Assembly: GCF_030698125.1 (NCBI RefSeq)
Contig: NZ_JAUYNV010000001.1
Coordinates: 1-64,000, forward strand
DNA length: 64,000 nt
DNA from: Methyloversatilis sp.
Lineage (GTDB): Bacteria > Pseudomonadota > Gammaproteobacteria > Burkholderiales > Rhodocyclaceae
Direction of reading: 5' to 3'
Part shown: piece by piece, positions 3,633-23,200 of the stretch
Numbering within the stretch: the first letter of the stretch is position 1
How the letters are laid out: each line of letters opens with the position of its first letter
Translations under genes and position numbers: made by a program
The notes under the pieces: generated by a model
The model's database searches: none
Told to the model about the DNA's origin: nothing
Seen by the model: only the letters and a program-made list of their open reading frames with translations

Positions 3633-5471
3633 ATGGAAGAACAGGTCGGCATACGCTGGCATCATCTGGTCACCCGACTCGCCGATACGCGCCATCCGCA
3701 GGCGGCGGTCATGCTCGAGCGCATTGCGCCGCGACTGGCGACCGTGCTGCGCGCGCTGGGCGCCGACCCCGGACTGGGCGTGCGCGCCTCGCCCGAACGC
3801 CGCCTCGCCACGCCGCGCCGCTGGCTGCAGAAGCTGGCCGGCACCGGCCGGCGCCACGCGGTGGCCTGGCGCGACGACGACGGACTGCGGCTGCCGCCGG
3901 TGCTCGACACCTTCGACCAGATCGCACTCAACGAAGGGCTCGGCCTGTGGTTGGTCGCGCTGGCCAGCCGTGCACCGGCACCAGGTCCGGCAGACGACTG
4001 GGCCGGCTGGAACCGCCGGCTCGTCGCGCAAACGCTGGACGACTACCCGGGGCTGGCCGAACTTTACGGCCGGCTGGCGCGCACGCACGTCGCGCAAAGG
4101 CCGCGCCCGGCGCTGCAGGAAAGCGACGGCAGCCGGCGCGAAGCGGCGCTGCAGGCGGCGCTGCTCGAACCGCGCGACGCTCCGGCCGTACCGCCGGCCG
4201 CCGGCGATCCGCTGCCGGTGCCGCTGTGGCTCTATCCGGTCGAAGCGGCCGACAACGCTCGTCCGCCGTCCGACGACGCGGCCGAAGAGAGGCCGGCCGC
4301 CGCAGGCGCCGGCCAGCAGTTGCGCCAGCGCAAGCGCGCCAGCTACGTCGACGACATCGACGGCCGCAGCGGCCTTCTGGTGTTCCGGCTGGAAAGCCTG
4401 TTCTCGTGGTCGGAATTCATCCCGCTCGACCGCACCGCCGATGACGACGACACCGACGCGGCGCGCGTCGCCGAAGATCTCGACCATCTGAGCCTGTCGC
4501 GCAAGCGCAGCGCCAGCTCGTCTCGGCTGCGCGTCGACCTCGACCTGCCATCGGCGACCGAAGACGACATTCCGCTCGGCGAAGGCCGCTTGCTGCCGGA
4601 ATGGGACTGGCGCAAGGCCGCGCTGCTGCCGGACCACTGCCGCGTCGTGCCGATGCTGCCGCGCGGCGCCACGCCGCTGCCGCTGCCCGCCCGGCTGCAG
4701 CCGGCCGCCACCCGGTTGCGCCAGCGCTTCGAATCGCTGCGGCCGCAGAAAAGCTGGTTGCGCCGCCAGGCGGACGGCGACGTGCTCGACCTGTCGGCCT
4801 GCGTCGATTTCAGCGTGCAGCGCCAGCTCGGCAGCGCCCCCGGCCAGCCCCTGCTGTGGCGCCGGCAGAGCGCGCAGCAGCGCGACCTCGCCTGCCTGGT
4901 GCTGGCCGACCTGTCGCTGTCGACCGAAGCGGCGATCGACGACGAGCACCAGGTCATCGACGTCATCCGCGACAGCTTGCACCTGCTCGGCGAGGCGCTC
5001 GACGCCGGTGGCGACGCCTTCTCGATGTACGGATTTTCATCGCGCCGGCGCGACCACGTGCGGCTGTCGCTGATCAAGAACTTCGCCGACGCCTGGGGCG
5101 ACGAGGTGCGCGGGCGCGTGCAGTCGCTGCGCCCCGGCTATTACACGCGCATGGGTGCGGCCATCCGCCAGGCCACCGAAATCCTCGGCGGGCAAGCAGC
5201 GGAACAGCGGCTGCTGCTGCTGCTCACCGACGGCAAGCCGAACGACCTCGACCTCTACGAGGGCCGCTACGGCATGGAAGACACGCGCCACGCGCTGATG
5301 GAAGCGCGGCGCGCCGGGCTGCAGCCCTTCTGCGTGACGATAGACCAGGAGGCGGCCGACTATCTGCCGCACCTGTTCGGCGCGCAGCGCTTCCACCTGT
5401 TGCGCCGGGCGCAGGACCTGCCCCGCGTGCTGCCGCAGCTCTACCTGCTGCTGACCGGGCGCTCGCCGTGA
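3633..5471 (+). CDS. norD: NorD, von Willebrand factor A protein for NO reductase activation
   Basis: This 612-residue protein is the VWA partner of the NorQ ATPase. The first 400 or so residues are low-complexity and rich in Ala, Arg and Asp. The VWA domain fills the last 200 residues, with a metal-ion-dependent adhesion motif DLSLST at about 428-433 and further acidic residues in TDGKPNDLD. NorQ and NorD together are needed to insert the non-heme iron and activate NorCB. The start at 3633 has no strong ribosome site. The stop overlaps the GTG start of norE, so translation is probably coupled. Confidence 0.92.
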   Translation: MEEQVGIRWHHLVTRLADTRHPQAAVMLERIAPRLATVLRALGADPGLGVRASPERRLATPRRWLQKLAGTGRRHAVAWRDDDGLRLPPVLDTFDQIALNEGLGLWLVALASRAPAPGPADDWAGWNRRLVAQTLDDYPGLAELYGRLARTHVAQRPRPALQESDGSRREAALQAALLEPRDAPAVPPAAGDPLPVPLWLYPVEAADNARPPSDDAAEERPAAAGAGQQLRQRKRASYVDDIDGRSGLLVFRLESLFSWSEFIPLDRTADDDDTDAARVAEDLDHLSLSRKRSASSSRLRVDLDLPSATEDDIPLGEGRLLPEWDWRKAALLPDHCRVVPMLPRGATPLPLPARLQPAATRLRQRFESLRPQKSWLRRQADGDVLDLSACVDFSVQRQLGSAPGQPLLWRRQSAQQRDLACLVLADLSLSTEAAIDDEHQVIDVIRDSLHLLGEALDAGGDAFSMYGFSSRRRDHVRLSLIKNFADAWGDEVRGRVQSLRPGYYTRMGAAIRQATEILGGQAAEQRLLLLLTDGKPNDLDLYEGRYGMEDTRHALMEARRAGLQPFCVTIDQEAADYLPHLFGAQRFHLLRRAQDLPRVLPQLYLLLTGRSP

Positions 5472-6318: not shown

Positions 6319-6554
6319 ACAGCCGCGCGCAAACCCTGGCCTGGCTCGCCCTGTCGGCGCTGACGCTCGCCGGCTGGTGGCTCGGCCCTTACGCATCCGG
6401 TCGCTGGGCGAACTGGGGCCTGCTGTCGCTGACCGCCTTCAACCTGCTCATCCGTCACTTCATGGAACTGGGCAACGCGCCGGCATGGCTACGCCTGCCG
6501 GTGCTGGGCTGGCTGTTCGGCATGCTCGCGTTCATTGCGATCATGCTGTCATGA
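6315..6554 (+). CDS. norF: NorF, small membrane protein of the nor operon
   Basis: This 79-residue protein has two or three hydrophobic segments and resembles the cytochrome oxidase subunit IV-like NorF. Its ATG overlaps the norE stop (ATGA), as in intact norEF pairs. NorF is an accessory factor whose exact role is unclear. The gene is intact, although its translation may suffer if coupling with norE is lost through the insertion. It is the last gene of the operon and faces pckG. Confidence 0.75.
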   Translation: MNSRAQTLAWLALSALTLAGWWLGPYASGRWANWGLLSLTAFNLLIRHFMELGNAPAWLRLPVLGWLFGMLAFIAIMLS

Positions 6555-6585
6555 ACCGTCGCCGCGCACGCCGCGGCGCGACAGG

Positions 6586-6613
6586 ACCCGGGTCTCCGTT
6601 GCGGAGTCCGGGC
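6586..6613. terminator. possible bidirectional hairpin between norF and pckG
   Basis: An imperfect GC-rich hairpin (arms around CCCGGGTCTCCG and CGGAGTCCGGG) fills the 67-base gap between two convergent genes. There is no clear T-run on either side, so termination is only inferred from position. Confidence 0.4.
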
Positions 6614-6621
6614 CTTGTTGC

Positions 6622-8487
6622 TCAGACCGACAGTTGCCGCGCGATCTGCGCCTTCACCGCCGACAGCGCTTCCGGCAAGCGGTACTGCAGCCGGTCGAAC
6701 AGCTCTTCGTGCAGCGCAAGTTCCTGCTGCCATGCCACCGTATCGATCGACGTGATGCGGTCGAACAGTTCGCGGCTGAACTCCACGCCCGCCCAGCTCA
6801 GGTCGTCATAGCGGGGCGTGGTGCCGAACAGGTGTTCGACGCCTTCGGCCTTGCCCGCCACGCGATCCAGCATCCACTTGAGCACGCGCATGTTCTCGCC
6901 GAAACCCGGCCACACGAACTTGCCGTTGTCGTCGGTACGAAACCAGTTCACGCAGAAGATGCGCGGCAGGGCCTGGCCCTGCGCCGACAGGTTCTGGCCG
7001 AGCGTGAGCCAGTGGCTGAAGTAGTCGCTCATGTTGTAGCCGCAGAAGGGCAGCATGGCGAACGGGTCGCGGCGCACCACGCCCTGCTGGCCGGCCGCCG
7101 CCGCGGTGGTTTCCGAGCCCATGGTCGCCGCCATGTAGACGCCTTCGATCCAGTTGCGCGCCTCGGTCACCAGCGGCACCGTGGTCGAGCGACGGCCGCC
7201 GAAGATGAAGGCCGAGATCGGCACGCCGGCCGGGTCGTCCCAGTTCGGATCGATCACCGGGTTCTGCGTTGCCGCGACGGTGAAGCGCGCGTTCGGATGG
7301 GCCGCCTTGGCGCCGGTCTCCTTCGCGATTTCCGGCGTCCAGTCGCGCCCCTGCCAGTCGATCAGGTGGGCCGGCGGCTGCTTGGTCATGCCTTCCCACC
7401 ACACGTCGCCGTCATCGGTCAGCGCGACGTTGGTGAAGATGGTGTCGGACGCCAGCGACGCCATGCAGTTGGCGTTGGTATTCTGGTTGGTGCCCGGCGC
7501 CACGCCGAAATAGCCGGCTTCCGGGTTGATCGCGTACAGACGGCCGTCCTTGCCCGGCTTGATCCAGGCAATGTCGTCGCCGATGGTGGTGACCTTCCAG
7601 CCCTCGAAGCCCTTCGGCGGAATCAGCATCGCGAAATTGGTCTTGCCGCAGGCGGACGGAAATGCCGCCGCGACATAGTGCTTGTCACCCTGCGGGTTTT
7701 CCACGCCGAGGATGAGCATGTGTTCGGCCAGCCAGCCCTCGTCGCGGCCCATGGTCGATGCGATGCGCAGTGCAAAGCACTTCTTGCCGAGCAGAGCGTT
7801 GCCGCCGTAACCCGAGCCGAAACTCCAGATTTCACGCGTTTCCGGGTAATGAACGATGTATTTGGTGGCGTTGCACGGCCACGGCACATCCTTCTCACCC
7901 GCCGCCAGCGGCTTGCCGACCGTGTGCACGCAGGGCACGAAGTCGCCGTCGCTGCCCAGCACGTCGTACACCGCGCGGCCCATGCGCGTCATGATGCGCA
8001 TGTTGACCGCCACATACGGCGAATCGGACAGTTCGATGCCGATCTGCGAAATGTGCGAACCGAGCGGGCCCATCGAGAACGGCACCACGTACATCGTGCG
8101 CCCGCGCATGCAGCCGCGGAACAGGCCGGTCAGCGTTTCGCGCATCTGCGCGGGCGCCATCCAGTTGTTGGTCGGGCCGGCGTCTTCCTCGCGTGCCGAG
8201 CAGATGTAGGTGCGGTCTTCGACGCGCGCGACGTCAGACGGGTCGGACAGCGCAAGATAGGAATTCGGGCGCTTGACCGGATCGAGGCGCTTCATCGTGC
8301 CCGATGCGACCATGTCGGCACACAGACGGTCGTATTCCTCTTCTGAACCGTCGCACCAGTAGATGGCGTCGGGTTGGGTGAGCGCCGCCACTTCGGCGAC
8401 CCATGCGACCAGCTTGCGGCTCTTGACCCATGCCGGAACGGGTATTTCGCCGGAGCGGATCTGCTCGGGCGACAAGACGACTTTCAT
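6622..8487 (-). CDS. pckG: phosphoenolpyruvate carboxykinase (GTP)
   Basis: This 621-residue enzyme converts oxaloacetate and GTP to phosphoenolpyruvate, CO2 and GDP, the entry step of gluconeogenesis. The GTP-type signature is clear: the kinase-1a loop [12 protein letters not shown], which contains the reactive cysteine, follows [11 protein letters not shown], with RPEDTPWGM-like substrate blocks further on. The length is normal for the family. The ATG at 8487 is preceded by GGAGAG. An open frame extends 35 codons further upstream, but it lacks family similarity and a ribosome site. The gene stands alone, convergent with norF. Confidence 0.95.
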
Positions 8488-12118: not shown

Positions 12119-13344
12119 CGGCGATGCGGTACTTTTCCGGACGCGCGGTCGCGCGTGTCCTGCGCAACGCGCTGTGCCTGTCGTCGCTGCTCGTCCCGCT
12201 TGCGATCGGCTCGGGTCAGTCAGGCGACGCCGTGCGCTATTCCGACAGCGGTCCGGAGCCCATGCTCGAACAGGTGTTCCGCCAGATCGAGCGCAACAAA
12301 CTGGGACTTGCGCTCGAACAGGTCGATGCCCTGCTGCATATCTGGCCCAACTTCCGGCTCGGCCACCTGATTCGCGGCGACCTGCTGATGGCCCGGTCGA
12401 GTGCGCTGACCACGATAGGCAATGCGCCGAACGCGCCGGAAGAACGGCTGGCCGACCTGCGCGATGAAGCCGTGGCGCGCATCCGTGCCTACCGCGACAA
12501 GCCACCGGCCGATCGCGTGCCGCGCTACCTGCTGCAGTTGCAGGCGTCGCAACGTCACGCGGTGGTGGTCGACACGCGCCGCTCGCGGCTCTATCTATAC
12601 GAGAACGTAGCCGGTCAGCCGCGCTTCGTTGCTGACTATTACGTATCGCATGGCCGGCTGGGCATCGAAAAGATGCGCGAAGGCGACAAGAAGACGCCGC
12701 TGGGTGTCTATCAGGTCACCGGCTTCCTGCCGCCGGAACGACTGACCGATTTCTATGGAGCGGGCGCGCTGCCGATCAATTACCCGAACGCGTGGGACCG
12801 CAAGCAGGGCCGCAAGGGTCACGGCATCTGGCTCCATGGCACGCCTTCCGACACCTTCTCGCGCCCGCCGCGCGCGTCGGACGGCTGCGTCGTGCTGGCC
12901 AATTCCGATTTCCTCGCGCTGAACAACCACCTGCAGGGCGCGTCGGTGCCGGTCATCATCAGCGACTCGGTGGAATGGCTGACGCTGGACGACTGGCAGT
13001 CCGAGCGCAGCGAGTTCAACCGGGCGCACGAACAGTGGCGCAGTGACTGGGAAAGTCGTGACGTCGAGCGCTTCCTGTCGCATTATTCTGCGCGGTTCAG
13101 CGCCGGCAAGAAGGATCTGGCGGCGTTTGCCGCACAGAAGCGCGCGGTGAACGCGGGCAAGAAATGGATCAAGGTCGGTGTGGACAAGTTGAGCACCTTC
13201 CGTAATCCCGGCCGCGAAGACCTGGTCGTCGTCACTTTCGAACAGGACTACCGCAGTGACAATCTGTCGAACCGCATGCTCAAGCAGCAGTACTGGCAGC
13301 GCGAAGACGGCCGCTGGCGCATCGTGTTCGAAGGCGAAGGCTGA
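12115..13344 (+). CDS. L,D-transpeptidase (YkuD fold) with NTF2-like C-terminal domain
   Basis: This 409-residue protein starts with a signal or anchor segment (about 13-33). The YkuD catalytic domain covers about residues 140-285 and has the active-site motif HGTPSDTFSRPPRASDGCVV with the catalytic cysteine in SDGC. The last 110 residues (HEQWRSDWESRDVERFLSHY) match the C-terminal domain of the preceding TPR protein. Enzymes of this type make 3-3 peptidoglycan crosslinks or attach proteins to peptidoglycan. It is translationally coupled to the upstream gene. Confidence 0.88.
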   Translation: MTAMRYFSGRAVARVLRNALCLSSLLVPLAIGSGQSGDAVRYSDSGPEPMLEQVFRQIERNKLGLALEQVDALLHIWPNFRLGHLIRGDLLMARSSALTTIGNAPNAPEERLADLRDEAVARIRAYRDKPPADRVPRYLLQLQASQRHAVVVDTRRSRLYLYENVAGQPRFVADYYVSHGRLGIEKMREGDKKTPLGVYQVTGFLPPERLTDFYGAGALPINYPNAWDRKQGRKGHGIWLHGTPSDTFSRPPRASDGCVVLANSDFLALNNHLQGASVPVIISDSVEWLTLDDWQSERSEFNRAHEQWRSDWESRDVERFLSHYSARFSAGKKDLAAFAAQKRAVNAGKKWIKVGVDKLSTFRNPGREDLVVVTFEQDYRSDNLSNRMLKQQYWQREDGRWRIVFEGEG

Positions 13345-15806: not shown

Positions 15807-15957
15807 GCGGCTCCGATCTCCCGGACGGAAGGCGGGCTGACGGGCCACAGGCGCCGCTGCAACACCTGCTTGCAACTGGCAACAGCCGCGCGGCCGTGCA
15901 TCGTCTAGTGTTCAGTCGTCGCGATTGCCCCCGGGCAGTCAGGCCCTCTCCTTCCGC

Positions 15958-16093: not shown

Positions 16094-16144
16094 TGGTGCC
16101 GCTTGTCGGAATCGAACTGACGACCTACCGCTTACAAGGCGGTT
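16094..16144. repeat. left attachment site (tRNA-Thr 3' remnant)
   Basis: These 51 bases are identical to 23125-23175, the anticodon-arm-to-CCA part of the tRNA-Thr gene. Beyond 16144 the sequence no longer matches a tRNA, so this is only the duplicated end created by integration. It lies 152 bases upstream of the integrase gene. Confidence 0.93.
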
Positions 16145-16234
16145 TTACACGACCAAACCTGACCTCTATTGATACAATATTTACCTTTTATTCAATACTT
16201 TAATAAGTAAATAAGGGTTCAAATCACATCACAA

Positions 16235-16264
16235 GGTTACAAACAACATCATTTGGTTGTAACC
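16235..16264. promoter_or_regulatory. inverted repeat and AT-rich region upstream of the integrase
   Basis: GGTTACAA (16235-16242) pairs with TTGTAACC (16257-16264), and the preceding 16145-16220 is much richer in A and T than the host. This is the expected place for the integrase promoter, an operator or integrase arm sites. The exact role cannot be read from the sequence. Confidence 0.45.
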
Positions 16265-16296
16265 TGAAATTCAACCTGATGGGTGGAGGTGTGACG

Positions 16297-17568
16297 ATGG
16301 GCAAGCTGAACGATGCGGCAATCCGATCCGCCAAGGCGGGAGAAATCCGGCGAGACCTGGCTGACGGTGACGGCCTGTACCTTCGGGTCGAGCCGACAGG
16401 CCGAAAGGTTTTCTACGCTCGCTCAATGCTTGCAAAGAAGGTGCGGATGTACCGTTTGGGGGAGTACCCGGCCGAACTCTCCTTGGCGGAAGCGCGCACG
16501 GCGAACGCAGCACATCGCGCGGAGGTGGCAAAGGCGCGCGCAGGTGATGGCCCAGACCCCGCTAGCGCACGCAAGGAGCGCAAGCAGGCCACCACCTTGG
16601 CCGCCTTCGCGGAGGATGTCTATCTGCCATGGGCGGAGCGCAAAAAGCGTTCATGGCTCGAAGATCAAAGGATCCTCAGCCGTGACGTTCTCCCCTTTCT
16701 CGGTAGCCTGCGAGTGCGCGACATCGATCGCAAGCATGTTGCGAGCGTGGTCGAGCGGATCGAGCGACGCGGCAGCTTCAACGCGGCGTGGCAATGCTTG
16801 AAGCTTGTGCGCCGCTTGCTGGCGCTGGCGGTAGAGAAGGGAGTGATCGAGGCCAACCCGGCAGCCGTCGTCCGGACCATCGAGACGTTCACCCCGAAAG
16901 ATCGGGTGCTGTCCGAACTGGAGCTATCCGCCCTGCTCCGAGTCCTTCCAGCAGTGATGCCGGCCGAACAGATGCACTTGGCCTTGCTGCTTCAAATCCA
17001 CACCTTGTGCCGACCGAGTGAGGCGCGCGAAGCCATGCGCGGCGAATTCGACAAGGTACGCGGGATCTGGACGATTCCAGCGGCCCGATCAAAAAACGGC
17101 GTTGCGCACATCGTCCCGATAACCCACTCGGTCGCGCAGGTTATCGAACGAGCAGAAGCCGCGGCCGATACGCTTGCGGCACAGCGAGGCGAGGAACCGT
17201 CGCCGTTCTTGTTCCCCGGAAAGCTGCGCGGGCGACCGGTGTCTGAACAGTCTGTTGGCCGGGCGATTACACGGGATTTCAAGCTGGAGAAATCGACGCT
17301 GCGCGCAGCGGATATCGAGCCTTTCACGCCGCACGACCTCCGGCGAACAGGGGCAACACACCTGGCAAGGCTTGGGCACGGCCCGATCGTGCCGATGCTG
17401 TTGAATCACACCCCCCAGGGCGTGACACGCCAGCACTACGACCTTCACGACTACCTGCCAGAGCGGCGGGCAGCGCTTGAAGTGTGGTCAAGCCGCCTTG
17501 AAGGCCTGAAAGTCGAACAGACCGCCGACGGTGTAAAGATCACGGCGATTCGGTCCAACTTCGCTTGA
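16297..17568 (+). CDS. P4-type tyrosine integrase
   Basis: This 423-residue site-specific recombinase has an N-terminal DUF4102-type arm-binding domain (LADGDGLYLRVEPTGRKVFY), a core-binding domain (about 95-190) and a catalytic domain. The catalytic residues are present: Arg in LCRPSEAR, HDLRRT, the His in LNHTPQG and Tyr in RQHYDLHDY. Integrases of this class act at tRNA 3' ends, which fits the att repeats here. The ATG at 16297 is preferred over 16279 because GGAGG lies 7-8 bases before it. Confidence 0.95.
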   Translation: MGKLNDAAIRSAKAGEIRRDLADGDGLYLRVEPTGRKVFYARSMLAKKVRMYRLGEYPAELSLAEARTANAAHRAEVAKARAGDGPDPASARKERKQATTLAAFAEDVYLPWAERKKRSWLEDQRILSRDVLPFLGSLRVRDIDRKHVASVVERIERRGSFNAAWQCLKLVRRLLALAVEKGVIEANPAAVVRTIETFTPKDRVLSELELSALLRVLPAVMPAEQMHLALLLQIHTLCRPSEAREAMRGEFDKVRGIWTIPAARSKNGVAHIVPITHSVAQVIERAEAAADTLAAQRGEEPSPFLFPGKLRGRPVSEQSVGRAITRDFKLEKSTLRAADIEPFTPHDLRRTGATHLARLGHGPIVPMLLNHTPQGVTRQHYDLHDYLPERRAALEVWSSRLEGLKVEQTADGVKITAIRSNFA

Positions 17569-17794
17569 AACTTTAAAGTTCGTCCTGATACTCTCTGATC
17601 GCCGTTGGGAAGTCGTCAGCCCAGCAGAAAGTGAAGACGTACCGGGCTTGGCAACCGGAGTACAGGTAGCGCCTCCATGAAAAATGAGGCTGGCAGTCGG
17701 GGACAGGCCGACGACCCTTGAGGGGTTCGCAATCACCAAGCGAGAAAAAGCCACCGCGCACCGCGGTACCGCTCATTTCTTGTTGGAGCCTGAT

Positions 17795-18076
17795 ATGCGA
17801 ACCAAATCGAACTCACCCGTTACCTCAGCACGGCCCTCTGACGCCGCAACTTCGCCTGCTGGTGCAGCCCACGACGGCGACTCAATCCTGAAAGCCCCCG
17901 AGGTCTGCGCGATCTTTCGTCGCAGTCTGCCGAGCCTGCGCCGCGACTGGCGAGCCGGCCGCATCCCCGCCCCTATCCGTATCGGAGTGCGCGCCATGGG
18001 CTGGCGACGTAGTGACATCGAAAAGCACTTAGCGAGCCTTGAGCCAGAAGCAACCCCGGGTCAGGAGGCCGCGTAA
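17795..18076 (+). CDS. AlpA-like helix-turn-helix regulator or excisionase
   Basis: This 93-residue protein has a C-terminal MerR/AlpA-type winged helix (about residues 35-80: APEVCAIFRRSLPSLRRDWR, then a conserved RIPAPIRIG and GWRRSDIEKHL). AlpA-type proteins control integrase or excision in P4-like islands and act as activators in Gram-negative phage satellites. GGAG lies 7 bases before the ATG. An upstream in-frame extension lacks a ribosome site. It is the first gene of the replication block. Confidence 0.75.
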   Translation: MRTKSNSPVTSARPSDAATSPAGAAHDGDSILKAPEVCAIFRRSLPSLRRDWRAGRIPAPIRIGVRAMGWRRSDIEKHLASLEPEATPGQEAA

Positions 18077-18078
18077 CC

Positions 18079-18324
18079 ATGGCCGCCAACAAGACCGCCC
18101 CGGCCGGCTGGACCCCGGCTCAGGGCGATGACCACATTCAAAAGCCCCCTGAGCTTACCTTCGAAAGCGCCGGAAGCAACGATCAGCGACCCGATATCAG
18201 CTCGTCGGCCGCCTGCACATGCCGCAGCCGCGGCGAGTGCATGACGTGCCGCCGGCACATTCACCGCTCGCTACAACGCGAAGAACGCCGGGCTGCGATG
18301 AAGACGAATCGTGGGCGGGCGTAA
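18079..18324 (+). CDS. small cysteine-containing protein of the element
   Basis: I do not recognise this 81-residue protein. Four cysteines and two histidines cluster in CTCRSRGECMTCRRHIHR (about residues 46-63), which could bind zinc. It starts 2 bases after the AlpA-like gene and its stop overlaps the ATG of the initiator gene (TAATG), so it is translated as part of the replication operon. AGGAGG lies 11 bases before the start. Confidence 0.6.
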   Translation: MAANKTAPAGWTPAQGDDHIQKPPELTFESAGSNDQRPDISSSAACTCRSRGECMTCRRHIHRSLQREERRAAMKTNRGRA

Positions 18325-19142
18325 TGTCGTACAAGGTCATGCGCGAGGTCATGGAGAACTTCCGGGGCGGCGGGTCCCACCATGCCGTTATGACGGTGCT
18401 TGCGGATTTTGCAGACGACTCCGCGATCTGCTGGCCGTCCGTTGCGACAGTCGCAAGGCGCATCAGTCGCTCGCGGGCTACGGCACAGAGGATCCTTCAC
18501 GATCTGATCGGACACGGCTTCCTTGTGGTGATCGACAACGCGCATGGCGGCGCGCCAGGTAGCACGCGTCGTTATCGAATTTTCCCGAAAGGCGATGGGA
18601 AGGGGATTAAGACGGGTAGCACCAGTGCAACGGGTATCACTAATGCGACGGGTCGCACTCTTGAGCGCGACGGGTATCACCAGTGCAGCGAGACGGGTAT
18701 CACCACTGCGACCCAAACAAACAATGAACAAACAGTGAACCATGCAGAGCAATCTGACGACGGAATCGGTCAGCGTAAGGCGGACGTTCCGCAACTGAAG
18801 CCAAAGCGAACCCGGACGAAAGCTGCGGCATTAACGCTCAACGATTACCTAAGGCGATGCACGGCCGAAGGCGTTCCGCAACTCCCTGACAGCGACCCCG
18901 TTTTCAGATATGCCGAGAAAATTGGCCTTTCGGACGAGTTCCTTGGGCTCGCATGGAGCGAGTTCTGCCGCGACCACATCGAACGCCAGTCGCAACAGAC
19001 TGACTGGCGGGCGCACTTCCGAAACGCCATCCGCAAGAACTGGCTGAAGCTCTGGTACGTGGACAAGCAGACCGGCGAGTATCGGCTAACAACCGCCGGC
19101 GAGCAGGCCGCACGGGCACAGCACGGAGGGCGCGAAGCATGA
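18324..19142 (+). CDS. O-like replication initiator with helix-turn-helix domain
   Basis: This 272-residue protein has an N-terminal winged helix like phage replication proteins (about residues 15-75: HHAVMTVLADFADD, SVATVARRISRSRATAQRIL). The middle (about 93-130) is low in complexity because the DNA there is an iteron array. The C-terminal half (about 170-245) resembles helicase-recruiting domains of phage O or DnaT-type proteins (FCRDHIERQSQQTDWRAHFR). The stop overlaps the helicase start by 4 bases, the O-then-helicase order seen in lambdoid phages such as P22. I infer that it opens the origin and loads the next protein. Confidence 0.75.
   Translation: MSYKVMREVMENFRGGGSHHAVMTVLADFADDSAICWPSVATVARRISRSRATAQRILHDLIGHGFLVVIDNAHGGAPGSTRRYRIFPKGDGKGIKTGSTSATGITNATGRTLERDGYHQCSETGITTATQTNNEQTVNHAEQSDDGIGQRKADVPQLKPKRTRTKAAALTLNDYLRRCTAEGVPQLPDSDPVFRYAEKIGLSDEFLGLAWSEFCRDHIERQSQQTDWRAHFRNAIRKNWLKLWYVDKQTGEYRLTTAGEQAARAQHGGREA
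18611..18710 (+). repeat. five iterons inside the initiator gene, probable replication origin
   Basis: Five copies of a 19-bp sequence close to GACGGGTATCACCAGTGCA start at 18611, 18629, 18647, 18669 and 18692. Copies 4 and 5 are nearly identical. The third is the most divergent. An A-rich, G-poor stretch follows (18711-18760), a plausible unwinding region. This is the same layout as phage lambda, where the origin iterons lie inside gene O next to an AT-rich segment. Confidence 0.75.
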
Positions 19143-20530
19143 GCCATCAGACCATCGTCCTTCCGCCTCACAGCATCGAGGCTGAACAATCCCTGATCGG
19201 CGGCCTGCTGATCGACAACAAGAGCTTCGATCGGATCGCGGAGATCGTGAGCGACGGGGACTTCTACCGCGACGACCACCGCCGAATTTTTCGTCACATT
19301 TCGGCCCTTTTGATGTCGGGGAAGCCTGCGGATGTGGTTACAGTCTTTGGCTCTATCGATGCTGCAGGAGAAGCAGAACGGATGGGCGGGCTGGCGTACC
19401 TAGGGGACATCGCCAACAACACACCCTCCGCAGCGAATATCCGAGCCTATGCGGCCACGATCCGGGATCGGGCGTACCGACGCAGGGGTCAAGGCGAAAT
19501 AGAGGCGCTGGCGGTCTCCTACGCGGCCGGCGGGCTTTCACACGAGGACTTTGCTGCTGGTCTAGAACAGATCGCGGCGCGAGCTATCGACACGGAACGC
19601 GACGAACCCGCCCCGCTGGCCACGTCGATGCAACTGGCGGTCGATTACATTGAGCGCAGGGCCGAACAGCGCGGCCAACTTGCTGGCCTGAGCAGCGGGC
19701 TACGCGACGTCGACAAGGTGACCGGTGGGTTCGAACCTGGGCAGCTAGTGATTCTCGCGGCCCGTCCATCCGTTGGAAAAACGGCGTTGGCATTGGGAAT
19801 GGCGGACGCCGCCGCTTTGGCTGAACAGACTGTTCTGATGTTCTCGCTCGAAATGCCCAAGCGCGAGCTGGCGATGCGCCTAATGGCTCAGCGTACAGGA
19901 GTCAGTATTCAGGCCATGCGCACCGGCACGCGCGTCGAAGACTATCGGTCTGTTTTCGCCCGCGAGCTCTCGCACGCGCAGACGCAAAGGCTGTTCATTG
20001 ATGACAAGCACGCCGTCGGGCTGGCCTACGTCCGTGCCCGGGCGAAACGGATCCAGCGAATGCACGGACTCGGACTCATCGTTATCGACTACATCGGCCT
20101 GATGCGGGGGGAAGGTCAGAACCGCACGCAGGAGCTTGGCGCTATCTCTCGCGGGCTAAAGGCGCTCGCCAAGGAACTGGGGGCGCCCATCATCGCGTGC
20201 GCTCAACTGAACCGGGGAACCGAGGCTCGAACCGATCGCCGGCCCCAGCTTCACGACCTACGAGACAGCGGGGAAATCGAGCAGGACGCGGACATCGTGC
20301 TGATGCTCCATCGCGAGGAAACGACGAACAATGCGCCGGAGTGGCGCGGACTGGCTGAAGTGTTCGTGCGCAAAAACCGCAACGGCCCGACCGGTGAGAT
20401 TCGCCTGCGCTACGAAGGGGAAAAGACACGATTCAGTGACTACACCGGACCGGACCCGCGTGCTTCACAGCTCGGCAGCGGGCAGATGCAAGCTCGATCG
20501 CGCGGGTTCACATACCCGATGAACGACTGA
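19139..20530 (+). CDS. DnaB-type replicative helicase of the element
   Basis: This 463-residue protein has the DnaB N-terminal domain (PHSIEAEQSLIGGLLIDN) and the RecA-like helicase domain with Walker A ARPSVGKTA (about residues 215-223), Walker B LIVIDYIGLM and the HDLRDSGEIEQDADIV block. The length is normal for DnaB. As it sits directly after an initiator gene with internal iterons, it most likely unwinds the element's own origin. It is not the host dnaB, which has a different context. Confidence 0.93.
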   Translation: MSHQTIVLPPHSIEAEQSLIGGLLIDNKSFDRIAEIVSDGDFYRDDHRRIFRHISALLMSGKPADVVTVFGSIDAAGEAERMGGLAYLGDIANNTPSAANIRAYAATIRDRAYRRRGQGEIEALAVSYAAGGLSHEDFAAGLEQIAARAIDTERDEPAPLATSMQLAVDYIERRAEQRGQLAGLSSGLRDVDKVTGGFEPGQLVILAARPSVGKTALALGMADAAALAEQTVLMFSLEMPKRELAMRLMAQRTGVSIQAMRTGTRVEDYRSVFARELSHAQTQRLFIDDKHAVGLAYVRARAKRIQRMHGLGLIVIDYIGLMRGEGQNRTQELGAISRGLKALAKELGAPIIACAQLNRGTEARTDRRPQLHDLRDSGEIEQDADIVLMLHREETTNNAPEWRGLAEVFVRKNRNGPTGEIRLRYEGEKTRFSDYTGPDPRASQLGSGQMQARSRGFTYPMND

Positions 20531-20564
20531 AGCCACCCCACCCGTTGGAGGTCCGTGCAGCTAC

Positions 20565-21014
20565 CTAACGCAGCGCCCAGTAAAGAAGCCCGCCGGAAAC
20601 GAGAGACACGGCCGGGACGACCACGACGATTGCCCAAGCAGTGCGCTCAAGGCTTTGCTGCACGATGAACTGGTTCAGCCCTTGGTACAGCATCCAAACT
20701 TCGTCCTTCAGGCCGGGGAACGATGAATCGAAATCACGAAGTTCGCCCCCCATTTGACTTATCTCGAAGCCATCTGCAGGGCTCACGCTGCTCCTAACAT
20801 ACCGATAGCCCATGACTAAGAAGATTGCATAGGGAATTGTCAGCACAGCCCAATCACGGCTACCCGCGATTAGCAGCGCCCAGTGGAACATTACAAATCC
20901 GCAAAACAAATAGTGGCGTAGAACGGTTTGTACAGATTCCACACGCTGTTGCTGCTCAAGGATGAAAGAGATTCGGTCTTTCGCCTCAGCTCTCGAAAGT
21001 CTTCCTCTTGCCAT
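20565..21014 (-). CDS. membrane protein of unknown function in the element
   Basis: This 149-residue protein is the only good gene on the minus strand of the element. It has an N-terminal charged helix, two membrane segments (about 40-80), a soluble middle (SPADGFEISQMGGELRDFDS) and a C-terminal membrane segment (about 125-145). GGGGGCG precedes the ATG at 21014. Being transcribed against the replication genes, it may be expressed independently in the integrated state, as cargo genes often are. I cannot name the family. Confidence 0.6.
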   Translation of the reverse strand: MARGRLSRAEAKDRISFILEQQQRVESVQTVLRHYLFCGFVMFHWALLIAGSRDWAVLTIPYAIFLVMGYRYVRSSVSPADGFEISQMGGELRDFDSSFPGLKDEVWMLYQGLNQFIVQQSLERTAWAIVVVVPAVSLVSGGLLYWALR

Positions 21015-21454
21015 GATCGCCCCCGAAAAAAGCTTCACTTTTAACAGGAATTATCCGCTCGGAATGCCTGCAATCTCACCGTACGGCACCGTATTGACCA
21101 ACTACCTTTCTTGCCAAGCGCCACAACCGTATGCAGTTGATGCGCACACAAGATCGCCCGCAAACCAAATGCAGGTGGGGCGCTCCGCGAAAAGCGGTCC
21201 GGCACCGACAATCGAAGGCAACAGGGGAAACCCTGATACACGCACTTTACAGTGCGCAGTGTTTCAACAGCCTGTTCAACAGCGGCGCATCACCACCTAA
21301 AACACGCCGATTGTTGCCACATCGAACAGGTCTGAAACGACAGCCGCGCGCCGTCGGGAAAACATCTAGCCGCTTGCGGTGGCTGTTCATCCAGAACGCT
21401 GGCAGAGTGCATGAATCATGCGCGACGCATGCACAGGAGCGGGCAGGACACCAG
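21015..21454. other. intergenic stretch of the element without a clear gene
   Basis: No convincing gene is visible. It contains the promoter region for the minus-strand membrane gene, a short inverted repeat GCACTTTACAGTGC near 21242-21255 and two nearby copies of TTCAACAGC near 21265-21285. The frame of the next gene stays open leftward to 21131, but without a ribosome site. Confidence 0.4.
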
Positions 21455-21898
21455 ATGCAGAACGGCAACCAGCGCGAGCTTTTCTCACGTCCAACACTCG
21501 GACGCCCGGTTCATCGCCCGGAGGCTGCCGACCTGTTCGGCCCGGAGGTTGTGTGCCTCGACGCGGACGCGATCGTTCGCGGTTTCATGGCCGTGCTGAC
21601 GCCGCGCGGCGGCAATGCTGCGGAGCGCGACCGGGCCGCAGTCGATGCCGTTCGCGCCTGGGCGATGCTCGACAGCTTCACCCGTCTGCACCAGAACCGC
21701 CCCGCGGTTCCTGACGCCAAGCAGCGGATCATGCAGCGCATCAGAGAGGCCGCTGCGCTTCAGGCCTTCATCGACGACGGGAACGATAGCGTCGAGGCTC
21801 GCGACGTACTCGACGACCGGTTGAGGGCTGCGCGCGCCGAGCTGGTGGCGGGCTTCCCCGGCGTTGAGCACCACGCCTTCATTGTCCTGCTGGACTGA
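21455..21898 (+). CDS. hypothetical protein of the element
   Basis: I do not recognise this 147-residue soluble protein. It is acidic and mostly helical (AERDRAAVDAVRAWAMLDSF, DAKQRIMQRIREAAALQAFI). The ATG at 21455 is preceded by GGCAGGA at a good distance. It lies between the helicase block and the right end of the element. The sequence looks coding, with a typical high-GC third-position pattern. Confidence 0.6.
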   Translation: MQNGNQRELFSRPTLGRPVHRPEAADLFGPEVVCLDADAIVRGFMAVLTPRGGNAAERDRAAVDAVRAWAMLDSFTRLHQNRPAVPDAKQRIMQRIREAAALQAFIDDGNDSVEARDVLDDRLRAARAELVAGFPGVEHHAFIVLLD

Positions 21899-22448
21899 GG
21901 ATCGCTTGGGCTTCGCTTGTCCTGCCCTCGCTGCTCATCGCGCGCTCGTTGGATTTCTGCGGGCTTTCGCCGTCGCGACCCGCTGTAACCCTGTCCCGAA
22001 GGTTTCCGGCGCCGGCAAATTTTGGAACCGGGGCATGATGATGTGTGGCGCGCGCGTGATCACCCCTCCCCGGCGGGGTCGGCCCGGCTCGTGGTGGGCT
22101 TTGCACCGTGGCGCTGCTGATGTCACGCCATGTCACACGCACCAAGCCGGCCCGATGCTAGTCCGGTGCTCATCCGGTGCTTGTTCCATGCTCCGCTCAT
22201 CGTTGGCCTAGACATGGACTGGCCCGGCCGTCAGCGGCTCATCGTCCGCCCCTGACGCAGACAACAGTCTGTCACAGGATGTTCTTCGATTCTGGCGTCA
22301 ATGCGACGTTTCAGCGTCACGATGCAACGTCACATTACGGGCTTGCGGAGCGGATCGAACACGGGCAATCTAGCCTCCCTGTGCTGATGTCAATGTCACA
22401 TGGACACGGTGCAGCGGGGATCCTTCAACAGCCTGTGGAGCCTCGACC
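21899..22448. other. gene-poor stretch of the element with repeated GTCAC motifs
   Basis: Small overlapping frames exist on both strands but none has a convincing start. The stretch 22121-22400 contains six copies of (T/C)GTCAC(A/G): 22121, 22131, 22270, 22315, 22328 and 22394, plus two relaxed copies at 22295 and 22388. Near 22155-22200 are also repeats of CCGGTGCT. These may be binding sites for an element-encoded protein. Confidence 0.4.
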
Positions 22449-22694
22449 ATGAACACATTCACGCCCGACCGTGCAGCCCTGCGCACCATCGAAACCACCT
22501 TCGCAACCGCGCGACTGCTTGCTGCCGTCGACATGCTGCTGGATCGCCTGCCCGATGGCCTTGGCGATGCCGACGCGGCCACCGCGCGCACCGCGCCCCC
22601 GGCTGAGTACATCGACACACACGCGGGGCTGATCGAGTGCGCAGCGGCCGAACTAGAGGTACTGGCTCGCCGCATGCCGAGGCCGACGCGATGA
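22449..22694 (+). CDS. small helical protein of the element
   Basis: I do not recognise this 81-residue protein. It is mainly helical (TIETTFATARLLAAVDMLLD, GLIECAAAELEVLARRM) and has no signal or membrane segment. GGAG lies 8-9 bases before the ATG. Its stop overlaps the ATG of the next small frame (ATGA), which supports real translation of this 3' operon. Confidence 0.5.
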   Translation: MNTFTPDRAALRTIETTFATARLLAAVDMLLDRLPDGLGDADAATARTAPPAEYIDTHAGLIECAAAELEVLARRMPRPTR

Positions 22695-22909
22695 ACGGAC
22701 GCGGCAGCACGCGCCGAACCGTCAGCAAGGCCACAACGCATGCGCAGAGCACCCGCACATAGACCGGCCGCATCAACGCAGCCCGCGCGCCCGCTGGCGA
22801 CGCTCTGGCCATGGCCGAAGCCCGCAAGCTGCTTCGCATGCATCGGAGCTGCCTGGGCCGTCTCGCAGCCGCTGGCAATGTCCCGGCGCGACGAATGGGT
22901 CACGCGTGA
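22691..22909 (+). pseudogene. small frame interrupted by an amber codon
   Basis: From the ATG at 22691, which overlaps the previous stop, a 72-codon frame runs to TGA at 22907-22909 with one in-frame TAG at 22760-22762. After the TAG the sequence still looks coding (ALAMAEARKLLRMHRSCLGR). Either this is a recently broken gene, or only the 23-residue start is made. The evidence is coupling and frame only. Confidence 0.3.
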
Positions 22910-23061
22910 CGATCCACCCGCGCCTGGCTGCTTCGATACTGGCTGGCACTGATCAACAGACTGTCGGCGGCAGAGCGAGAGAGGCGAAAACAGACTCATC
23001 CAGCCTGATCGCTGGGCACGTCAAAAAACGCGCTGGAGAGTGCCACGACGGGCGGTTGTAA
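22906..23061 (+). CDS. short candidate gene at the right end of the element
   Basis: A GTG at 22906 overlaps the preceding stop (GTGA) and opens a 51-residue frame ending in TAA at 23059. The product is basic (GHVKKRAGECHDGRL at the end). It has no recognised family, and its support is only the overlapping start. Confidence 0.25.
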   Translation: MTIHPRLAASILAGTDQQTVGGRAREAKTDSSSLIAGHVKKRAGECHDGRL

Positions 23062-23124
23062 CCGCATTTGAAACCTGAAGGCGGGGAACAACTACCCTCC
23101 TCGCCCACAAGCCATTGAATTCAT

Positions 23125-23175
23125 TGGTGCCGCTTGTCGGAATCGAACTGACGACCTACCGCTTACAAGGCGGTT
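23125..23175. repeat. right attachment site within tRNA-Thr
   Basis: These 51 bases are identical to 16094-16144. They cover the anticodon stem-loop through the encoded CCA of tRNA-Thr, so integration here rebuilds the tRNA gene. Confidence 0.93.
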
Positions 23176-23200
23176 GCTCTACCAACTGAGCTAAAGCGGC
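23125..23200 (-). tRNA. tRNA-Thr (anticodon UGU)
   Basis: The minus strand gives a complete 76-base cloverleaf starting GCCGCTTTAGCTCAGTTGG, with anticodon loop CTTGTAA (anticodon TGT), T-arm GTTCGATTC and encoded CCA. The 3' two thirds lie inside the att repeat, so the gene was restored by the element on integration and is still functional. Confidence 0.97.

Follow-up and report, generated by a model that had tools for sequence, protein, structure and literature searches.

A compact element in a tRNA-Thr gene of Methyloversatilis with an O-like initiator and its own DnaB helicase, probably a phage satellite

We describe a compact integrative element found in a draft genome of Methyloversatilis sp. 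(assembly GCF_030698125.1). The DNA which we have analysed, called here the window, comprises positions 1–64,000 of contig NZ_JAUYNV010000001.1. The element is bounded by two identical 51-bp repeats, with a start-to-start span of 7,031 bp. An exact search of the whole assembly (4,197,568 bp in 58 contigs) finds no third copy. The right copy forms the 3' part of an intact tRNA-Thr(TGT) gene. In Rfam, with E values up to 1, there are seven matches: only the tRNA is above its gathering score, and the fragment in the left attachment site (attL) lies just under it. All features are given in Table 1.

The genes of the left half, from the integrase to the DnaB helicase, are all directed rightwards. 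The integrase has matches to Phage_integrase (2e-17) and Arm-DNA-bind_3 (3e-15) in Pfam. It is followed by a gene similar to PHROG 66, "excisionase and transcriptional regulator" (3e-5), which has 46% identity over 28 aa with the clear AlpA of locus L022. The O-like protein matches PHROG 391 (8e-15) and HTH_36 (3e-10); the helicase has both the DnaB_C domain (1e-87) and the DnaB N-terminal domain (8e-32). The genes are tightly packed: ORF81 (open reading frame 81) and O overlap in TAATG, O and DnaB in ATGA. An earlier note, made from the sequence alone, had described perfect tRNA-Thr repeats, a tyrosine integrase, an O-like initiator with iterons and a full DnaB, and all of them are confirmed. 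It had also seen no virion or conjugation genes. In agreement with this, comparison of the ORFs (apart from some small ones) with Pfam, PHROGs, NCBIfam and PADLOC gives no match to virion, lysis, relaxase or conjugation genes, nor to a primase. No Bro gene turned up either, although no search was aimed at it. The 149-aa ORF, ORF147 and ORF81b have no match in Pfam, PHROGs or PADLOC; ORF81b has one NCBIfam match below the cut-off.

Table 1. Features of the element and of its integration site (positions in the window)
Feature	Position	Strand	Basis
attL, 51-bp copy of the tRNA-Thr 3' part	16094..16144		repeat comparison, whole-assembly search
Tyrosine integrase, 429 aa, inward	16279..17568	+	Pfam, PHROGs
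AlpA/excisionase-like regulator; alternative longer start at 17684	17795..18076	+	weak Pfam/PHROG matches
ORF81; left junction of the swapped cassette	18079..18324	+	first 37 aa 62% identical to G007 ORF107
O-like replication initiator, 272 aa	18324..19142	+	PHROGs, Pfam, AlphaFold
Five 17-bp iterons, proposed origin	18612..18709	+	repeat scan, inside the O gene
DnaB-type replicative helicase, 463 aa	19139..20530	+	Pfam, PHROGs, NCBIfam, tree
149-aa ORF, membrane-like by inspection, adjoins the replication genes	20565..21014	-	no family match
ORF147	21455..21898	+	common to the G007 element
Conserved block without a supported gene	21949..22448		G007 alignment
ORF81b	22449..22694	+	common to the G007 element, 96% aa identity
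attR, same 51 bp, inside the intact tRNA-Thr	23125..23175		repeat comparison, whole-assembly search
tRNA-Thr (TGT), integration target	23125..23200	-	intact tRNA gene

The integration site has been compared in 13 genomes of the genus, which are designated G000 (the window genome) to G012. All of them have the tRNA-Thr pattern, nine in a single copy. When the left flank of the window is joined in silico to position 23125 onwards, it gives a single alignment of about 3 kb, with about 90% identity, in G011, G007 and G012: in these three genomes the alignment is unbroken and the site is empty. It is occupied in G000, G004 and G009. In G001, G006 and G010 both flanks are found in the same 3-kb locus, as separate pieces. 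In G003 attL and attR lie at contig ends (C39 end and C70 start), with the element itself absent. Both in G003 and in G009 (C39 end; L185, L189, L194, L195) the assembly is interrupted at the attL copy of the tRNA-Thr, which may be due to excised or multi-copy element DNA. The window genome is itself a draft of many contigs, which would agree with an assembly or composite artefact. Such an origin is very unlikely, since the element and both flanks are on one contig, three sites are empty and related elements occupy the same tRNA in G004 and G009.

The main evidence for a satellite with an exchanged replicon comes from the element of G007 (L209), which has the same right arm as the window element, with a single-stranded DNA-binding protein (SSB) and a primase in place of O and DnaB. 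ORF147 is 80% identical in amino acids and 83% in DNA (nonsynonymous and synonymous divergence, dN 0.113 and dS 0.391). The two elements share about 806 bp of the right arm, with 91% identity over 818 aligned positions, including ORF81b (dN 0.017, dS 0.162). A further 75 bp are 96% identical around the start of ORF81. Between these common blocks G007 contains a winged-helix protein (ORF107), an SSB (8e-9) and a 683-aa protein of the PriCT_2-Toprim_3-AAA_25 type, whereas this place is taken in the window by O, DnaB and the 149-aa ORF. The two integrases have only 26% identity and the insertion sites differ; the left end of the G007 element is located at what we take to be a tmRNA-like 3' end. 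By sequence comparison, the primase/SSB replication zone is replaced by a different replicon in the window element, within a related arm. The earlier note had inferred a small element, possibly a phage satellite, which solves its replication in another way. This part of its interpretation is supported by the relatives: by this common arm, and by the O-DnaB cores of elements which carry late genes.

Within the common arm a block of 500 bp is well conserved: 466 positions are identical to G007, and 175 of the 179 in its last part (22270–22448), as compared with 376 of 444 in ORF147. Recombination may explain part of this conservation, since dS of ORF81b (0.16) is also below that of ORF147 (0.39). 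An ORF in positions 22177–22446 was considered and judged to be non-coding: its 19 differences to G007 are spread 7/6/6 over the codon positions. No RNA structure stands out in the block (z between -2.0 and 1.4). It contains an imperfect palindrome in positions 21989–22032 and CAAYGTCACAT repeats. A packaging site, an origin of transfer (oriT) or a promoter are possible roles for the block. If it were an oriT, the element could be an integrative mobilizable or plasmid-like element, with autonomous replication and with transfer by means of a conjugative plasmid. We find this quite unlikely. It would agree with the presence of an own replicon, the lack of recognised virion genes, the palindrome and the matches of parts of O to plasmid records (the C-terminal part at about 43% in three, the N-terminal part in a fourth). 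However, the scanned ORFs contain no match to a relaxase or other conjugation gene, and the relatives of the element carry tail, TerS-like and late-activator genes, with no conjugation gene among their scanned proteins. The term plasmid-like, used in the earlier note, has therefore little support.

A second replication exchange is apparent in the two elements found at the same tRNA-Thr. The one in G004 (L010, 1083–14700) has about 13.5 kb, the one in G009 (L011, 80–11996) about 11.8 kb. Thirteen gene pairs have been compared. Most of them are clearly similar: integrase 86%, S24 81%, u104 85%, u131 79%, tail completion 74%, coiled-coil 66%, tape measure 67%, Mor-like 77%, TerS-like 72% and a tail-chaperone-like pair 77% over 139 aa; the AlpA-like genes have 41%. 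The replication genes are different: the DnaB proteins are only 46% identical and the O proteins do not align. The G004 helicase is instead 91% identical to the DnaB of L020, although the integrases of these two elements have 22% identity. The seven other proteins of L020 which were compared are identical to those of the complete G005 element (L221), where one 14-bp repeat is found at 4848 and the other at 15947, in the 3' end of a tRNA-Ser. In a DnaB tree the window, G004, L019 and L020 form a clade with 100/100 support, with the G009 helicase outside it, and 15 host DnaBs form a separate group (100/99). L026 and L099 carried the satellite label in this tree though their status is undecided. 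The different replication genes of related elements suggest that such satellites swap replication parts. As to the host, M. discipulorum MAG_31 (L127) has a chromosomal DnaB with 100% identity to that of G001, G004 and G010 and 95% to that of G000, so that it is probably a Methyloversatilis. The helicases of the window and G004 differ by dN 0.263 and dS 1.257, a ratio of about 0.21.

At least six compact elements are present in the 13 genomes (G000, G004, G005, G007, G008 and G009). They have a common layout: an inward integrase, an AlpA-like gene, which is clear in L020/G005 and weak in the others, a replication cassette and a variable right zone. Late genes are found in some of them. In G009 they are a Phage_tail_S/Neck1 gene, one similar to tail chaperones, a tape measure of 770 aa (PF20155, 5e-59), a Mor-like late activator and a TerS-like gene. 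The latter matches PHROG 645, labelled "Rnase E"; its position and a helix-turn-helix lead us to read it as TerS-like. G004 has homologues of these late genes and also a truncated portal of 398 aa, of which G009 retains a 40-aa piece. Neither terL nor a capsid gene was recognised in these two elements. L020/G005 contains Neck1 and a different tape measure. In G008 an element of 10.9 kb (L224, 1509–12459) lies between perfect 85-bp repeats which hold a tRNA-Gly; it has a weak AlpA-like gene, a 956-aa primase, a chaperone and a tape measure with 50% identity to that of G009. Another integrase is found directly to its left, possibly in a tandem arrangement. The presence of chaperone and tape measure in G009 and in the primase-type G008 means that this pair occurs with both replication types.

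A fuller prophage in G011 has homologues of the late genes found in G004 and G009: portal 83%, Mor 87%, TerS-like 60%, u131 69%, tail completion 74% and tape measure about 45%. Among ten G011/G008 proteins scanned, the prophage also encodes minor head, scaffold and major tail proteins; neither terL nor a capsid gene nor the prophage ends were identified. Its gene order is Mor, TerS-like, portal, u131, tail completion, tape measure, which is also the order of the G004 and G009 elements when they are read as circles. By sequence, this prophage may represent the lineage of helpers which serves the G004 and G009 elements. These homologies would also agree with a prophage remnant, in which integration and replication are retained but the genes for head, tail and lysis are gone, the more so as related O-DnaB elements carry late genes and O-DnaB pairs are found in larger viral contigs (L021, 33 kb; L027, 41 kb). 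Nevertheless a remnant is unlikely. With the G009 ORFs as queries, no late-gene remnant is detectable in the window element, which shows none of the head, packaging, tail or lysis genes of a prophage among its scanned ORFs; its right arm is common to a primase-type element; and an inward integrase followed by an AlpA-like gene differs from the prophages described in passages of PMC10111431. Selection points in the same direction. The dN/dS ratios (NG86) are about 0.22 for the tape measure, 0.24 for tail completion, 0.14 for the TerS-like gene, 0.29 for ORF147 and 0.11 for ORF81b; values of about 0.11–0.29 indicate that these genes, like DnaB, are maintained by purifying selection. As tail completion, tape measure and TerS-like genes are also intact, they resemble a satellite late zone more than a product of decay. 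For the earlier note, capsid or terminase remnants in larger relatives would speak against its interpretation and for a decayed prophage. This is the case in part: the TerS-like and tail genes and the truncated portal of G004 are there, no capsid gene was recognised, and the TerS-like, tail completion and tape measure genes are intact.

Two further loci should be mentioned here. In a viral contig (L026), O and DnaB are found together with an integrase, HigBA-like genes (by inspection) and a tRNA-Val (12838–12914). Both L026 and L025 have the O-DnaB pair and a 1,444-aa protein, maybe an internal virion or ejection protein; possibly they represent a podovirus-type satellite.

We now turn to the putative origin of replication. 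The O gene contains five copies of RCGGGTNNCACNNNTGC with at most one mismatch, spaced by 18, 18, 22 and 23 nt, and there is no other match in the 64 kb. The expected number is 1.63, and 2 of 100 whole-window shuffles reach five. Four of the copies (1, 2, 3 and 5) follow the reading frame of O, and copy 4 is shifted by one base; the fourth copy of the G004 O gene is shifted likewise. A copy out of frame indicates that it is in part the DNA of the repeat, at least, which is conserved, although a peptide repeat would explain equally the four copies in frame. The most AT-rich 36-bp stretches of the gene (61%, compared with 41% for the whole gene) start at 18716–18720, just downstream of the iterons, and this AT-rich zone spans about 18716–18755. 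The lambda O gene has the same arrangement, with iterons inside the initiator gene. In each of nine O genes tested, few of 300 codon shuffles contain a repeat as good as the best internal one (p at most 0.007), though in G009 it is a short run coding for QE. The sequence ACGGGTNNCAC is found in three of ten loci scanned (window, G004, L022), in the O gene every time, and these three proteins have their N-terminal winged helix in common. L019, L020 and L026 have a different N-terminus and different repeats. An AlphaFold model of O has a mean pLDDT (predicted local distance difference test) of 55, with 75–88 in the winged helix; residues 92–172, encoded by the iteron stretch, are disordered and the helical C-terminus is poorly modelled. 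A Foldseek search with this model returned winged-helix proteins, none of them at E 0.001 or better.

We conclude that the element is probably a phage satellite of the type of the Gram-negative phage-inducible chromosomal islands (PICIs), with a replication zone formed by an O-like initiator with iterons and its own DnaB. This conclusion is drawn from the bounded insertion with its empty sites, the gene content and order, the iterons, the purifying selection and the exchange of replication cassettes. From these features we infer a cycle of induction, excision, replication and packaging. A helper phage would trigger expression of the element, probably through the AlpA-like regulator. The integrase would excise it at the tRNA-Thr repeats and the element would become a circle. 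O would bind the iterons inside its own gene and load the DnaB of the element onto the adjoining AT-rich DNA, which host primase and polymerase would then copy. Finally the helper would package the copies, probably as concatemers; a helper would be needed for this step because no virion gene was recognised in the element.

Several observations weigh against this interpretation. The window element has no recognisable packaging signal, TerS or late gene. Its AlpA-like regulator, also proposed in the earlier note, stands in PHROGs as given above, but its Pfam matches (HTH_17, E 0.004; AlpA, E 0.009) are both under the curated cut-offs. Of the right arm, ORF147 was found in G007 alone among 100 other genomes. 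For the G007 element only the left end was found, with no right att site within the 20 kb fetched. Its right arm has a gene with some 155 codons (L209, about 6490–6980), which on inspection looks membrane-like; in the window only a stub of it is left (21899–21990), a sign of some decay. In the DnaB tree the compact elements are not one clade, their label needs four changes, and the larger contigs L021, L027 and L028 fall in the same group of 11 rows. The iterons are variable: among five O genes with the same N-terminal winged helix, ACGGGTNNCAC is present in only three; the L099 gene has several copies of a different repeat, ACGGGTGTACTGG, and the L023 gene has neither. Finally, the element has no nucleotide match at E 0.05 to a Mu-like prophage of its own genome (L231–L232, G000:C31:136000–175800), noticed by inspection, so that a resident helper is not indicated.

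A wider and more tentative proposal, which we would not put above the possible, is that Methyloversatilis harbours a family of satellites made of freely exchanged cassettes. The replication cassette (O-DnaB in two clades, or primase type) would be replaced as a unit, independently of integrase, att site and late genes. Members of the G004/G009 type have a subset of late genes (Mor, TerS-like, truncated portal, tail completion, tail chaperone, tape measure) whose circular order is that of the helper. This would suggest a satellite which came from its helper or repeatedly recaptures genes from it, and which may reset both the tail and the packaging of the helper. Of such a family the window element would be the minimal member.

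Searches of wider collections gave few relatives of the element. The integrase has no match in 149 other genomes at 1e-60, nor in viral contigs; at 1e-50 it is found in 2 of 368 other genomes, with 37–39% identity. The O protein is found in 6 of 100 other genomes, in an element context in G004, G009 and G047 and as short stretches only in G055, G093 and G032. It has no match in the collection of genome contigs; it matches seven phage records, with 25% identity at best, and, partially, the four plasmid records described above. DnaB gave none in 398 other genomes of the order (1e-125) and 368 of the class (1e-118), a weak negative as at most four candidates were scored per genome. Among the matches listed in genome contigs DnaB is mostly host-like, with one useful locus (L099), and in phage records 42.4% is the highest identity among the 40 matches listed of 1,530. 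A search with right-arm DNA gave G007 again and a 47-bp match in G042, around which no element was found; the arm has no match in phage records. ORF147 has none in plasmids, and neither it nor ORF81b has any in viral contigs. The G009 tape measure is found at six loci in viral contigs, with 39–44% identity over part of the protein, and that of L020 only in itself and L019. No description of an O-DnaB satellite was found in the literature searched, which largely leaves out subscription papers; among the matches listed for "phage satellite" together with "DnaB" there is only a paper on Salmonella genomic island 1 (SGI1), in which dnaB is the reference for quantitative PCR.

In passages of the papers cited, the replication genes of satellites are of the primase type: pri-rep in PICIs (PMC6092414, PMC10111431), prim in the phage-inducible chromosomal minimalist islands (PICMIs) of Vibrionaceae (PMC10803314) and a primase in the Pseudomonas element AH14b (PMC4936722). 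A satellite core which brings both initiator and DnaB, together with elements of one genus that have common arms and different replication cassettes, would make it testable which functions are tied to the helper and which can be plugged in. For the G004/G009 type, the late genes in common with a prophage of the same genus point to a concrete lineage of candidate helpers.

A comparison with other systems shows where the element stands. Lambda brings a loader (P) and uses the host DnaB; in the window an O-like initiator is paired with its own DnaB in an element of 7 kb. A DnaB homologue carried on mobile DNA is also found in P1, whose Ban protein has about 40% identity with the window helicase. 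The P4 satellite has an integrase, an AlpA-like gene and replication by a primase(-helicase). The window element resembles P4 and AH14b in having an integrase, an AlpA-like gene and replication genes of its own; it differs in that these two, in the passages of PMC4936722, have primase-type replication with no O-like initiator, and the word DnaB is absent from its text. PICMIs, as described in parts of PMC10803314, are also small, with an integrase, AlpA, a replication gene and unknown genes; as in them, no gene for capsid remodelling or TerS is recognised in the window. However, PICMIs lie beside fis and have a DUF3987/DUF5906 primase, while the window element is found in tRNA-Thr and has O-DnaB.

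The closest resemblance is with the Gram-negative PICIs, as far as passages of PMC6092414 and PMC10111431 describe them. The element has in common with them its small size, a specific att site with direct repeats, an inward integrase followed by an AlpA-like gene (the integrase and the order are clear, AlpA is weak), mostly one direction of transcription, replication genes ahead of a variable zone and the lack of a recognised full virion set. According to PMC10111431, PICIs are set apart from prophages by the zone order Integration, Bro, Replication, Late, and also by the inward integrase with AlpA. The layout of the window element agrees with this description, and on such evidence it would work like a small PICI or PICMI. 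In PICIs an accessory anti-phage region adjoins the pri gene (a passage of PMC11364771), and from its similar position beside dnaB we guess that the 149-aa ORF is a candidate cargo, perhaps an anti-phage accessory. Late-zone or interference genes were not recognised in the window; late genes are present in the elements of G004, G009, G005 and G008. The main differences are found in replication. Gram-negative PICIs have primase/rep or Primase-SSB-DUF5906 genes (Primase and SSB in the replication zone of PMC10111431), and their origin lies 3' of rep, with two sets of iterons flanking an AT-rich stretch; the window element has an O-like initiator and DnaB, with the iterons inside the O gene. The earlier note thought that the type may not be described. 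Its replication zone is indeed not the standard one, and since the element departs from the PICI definition in its replication genes and in the position of its putative origin, it is better filed as a variant of the Gram-negative PICI layout, rather than as a member of the group.

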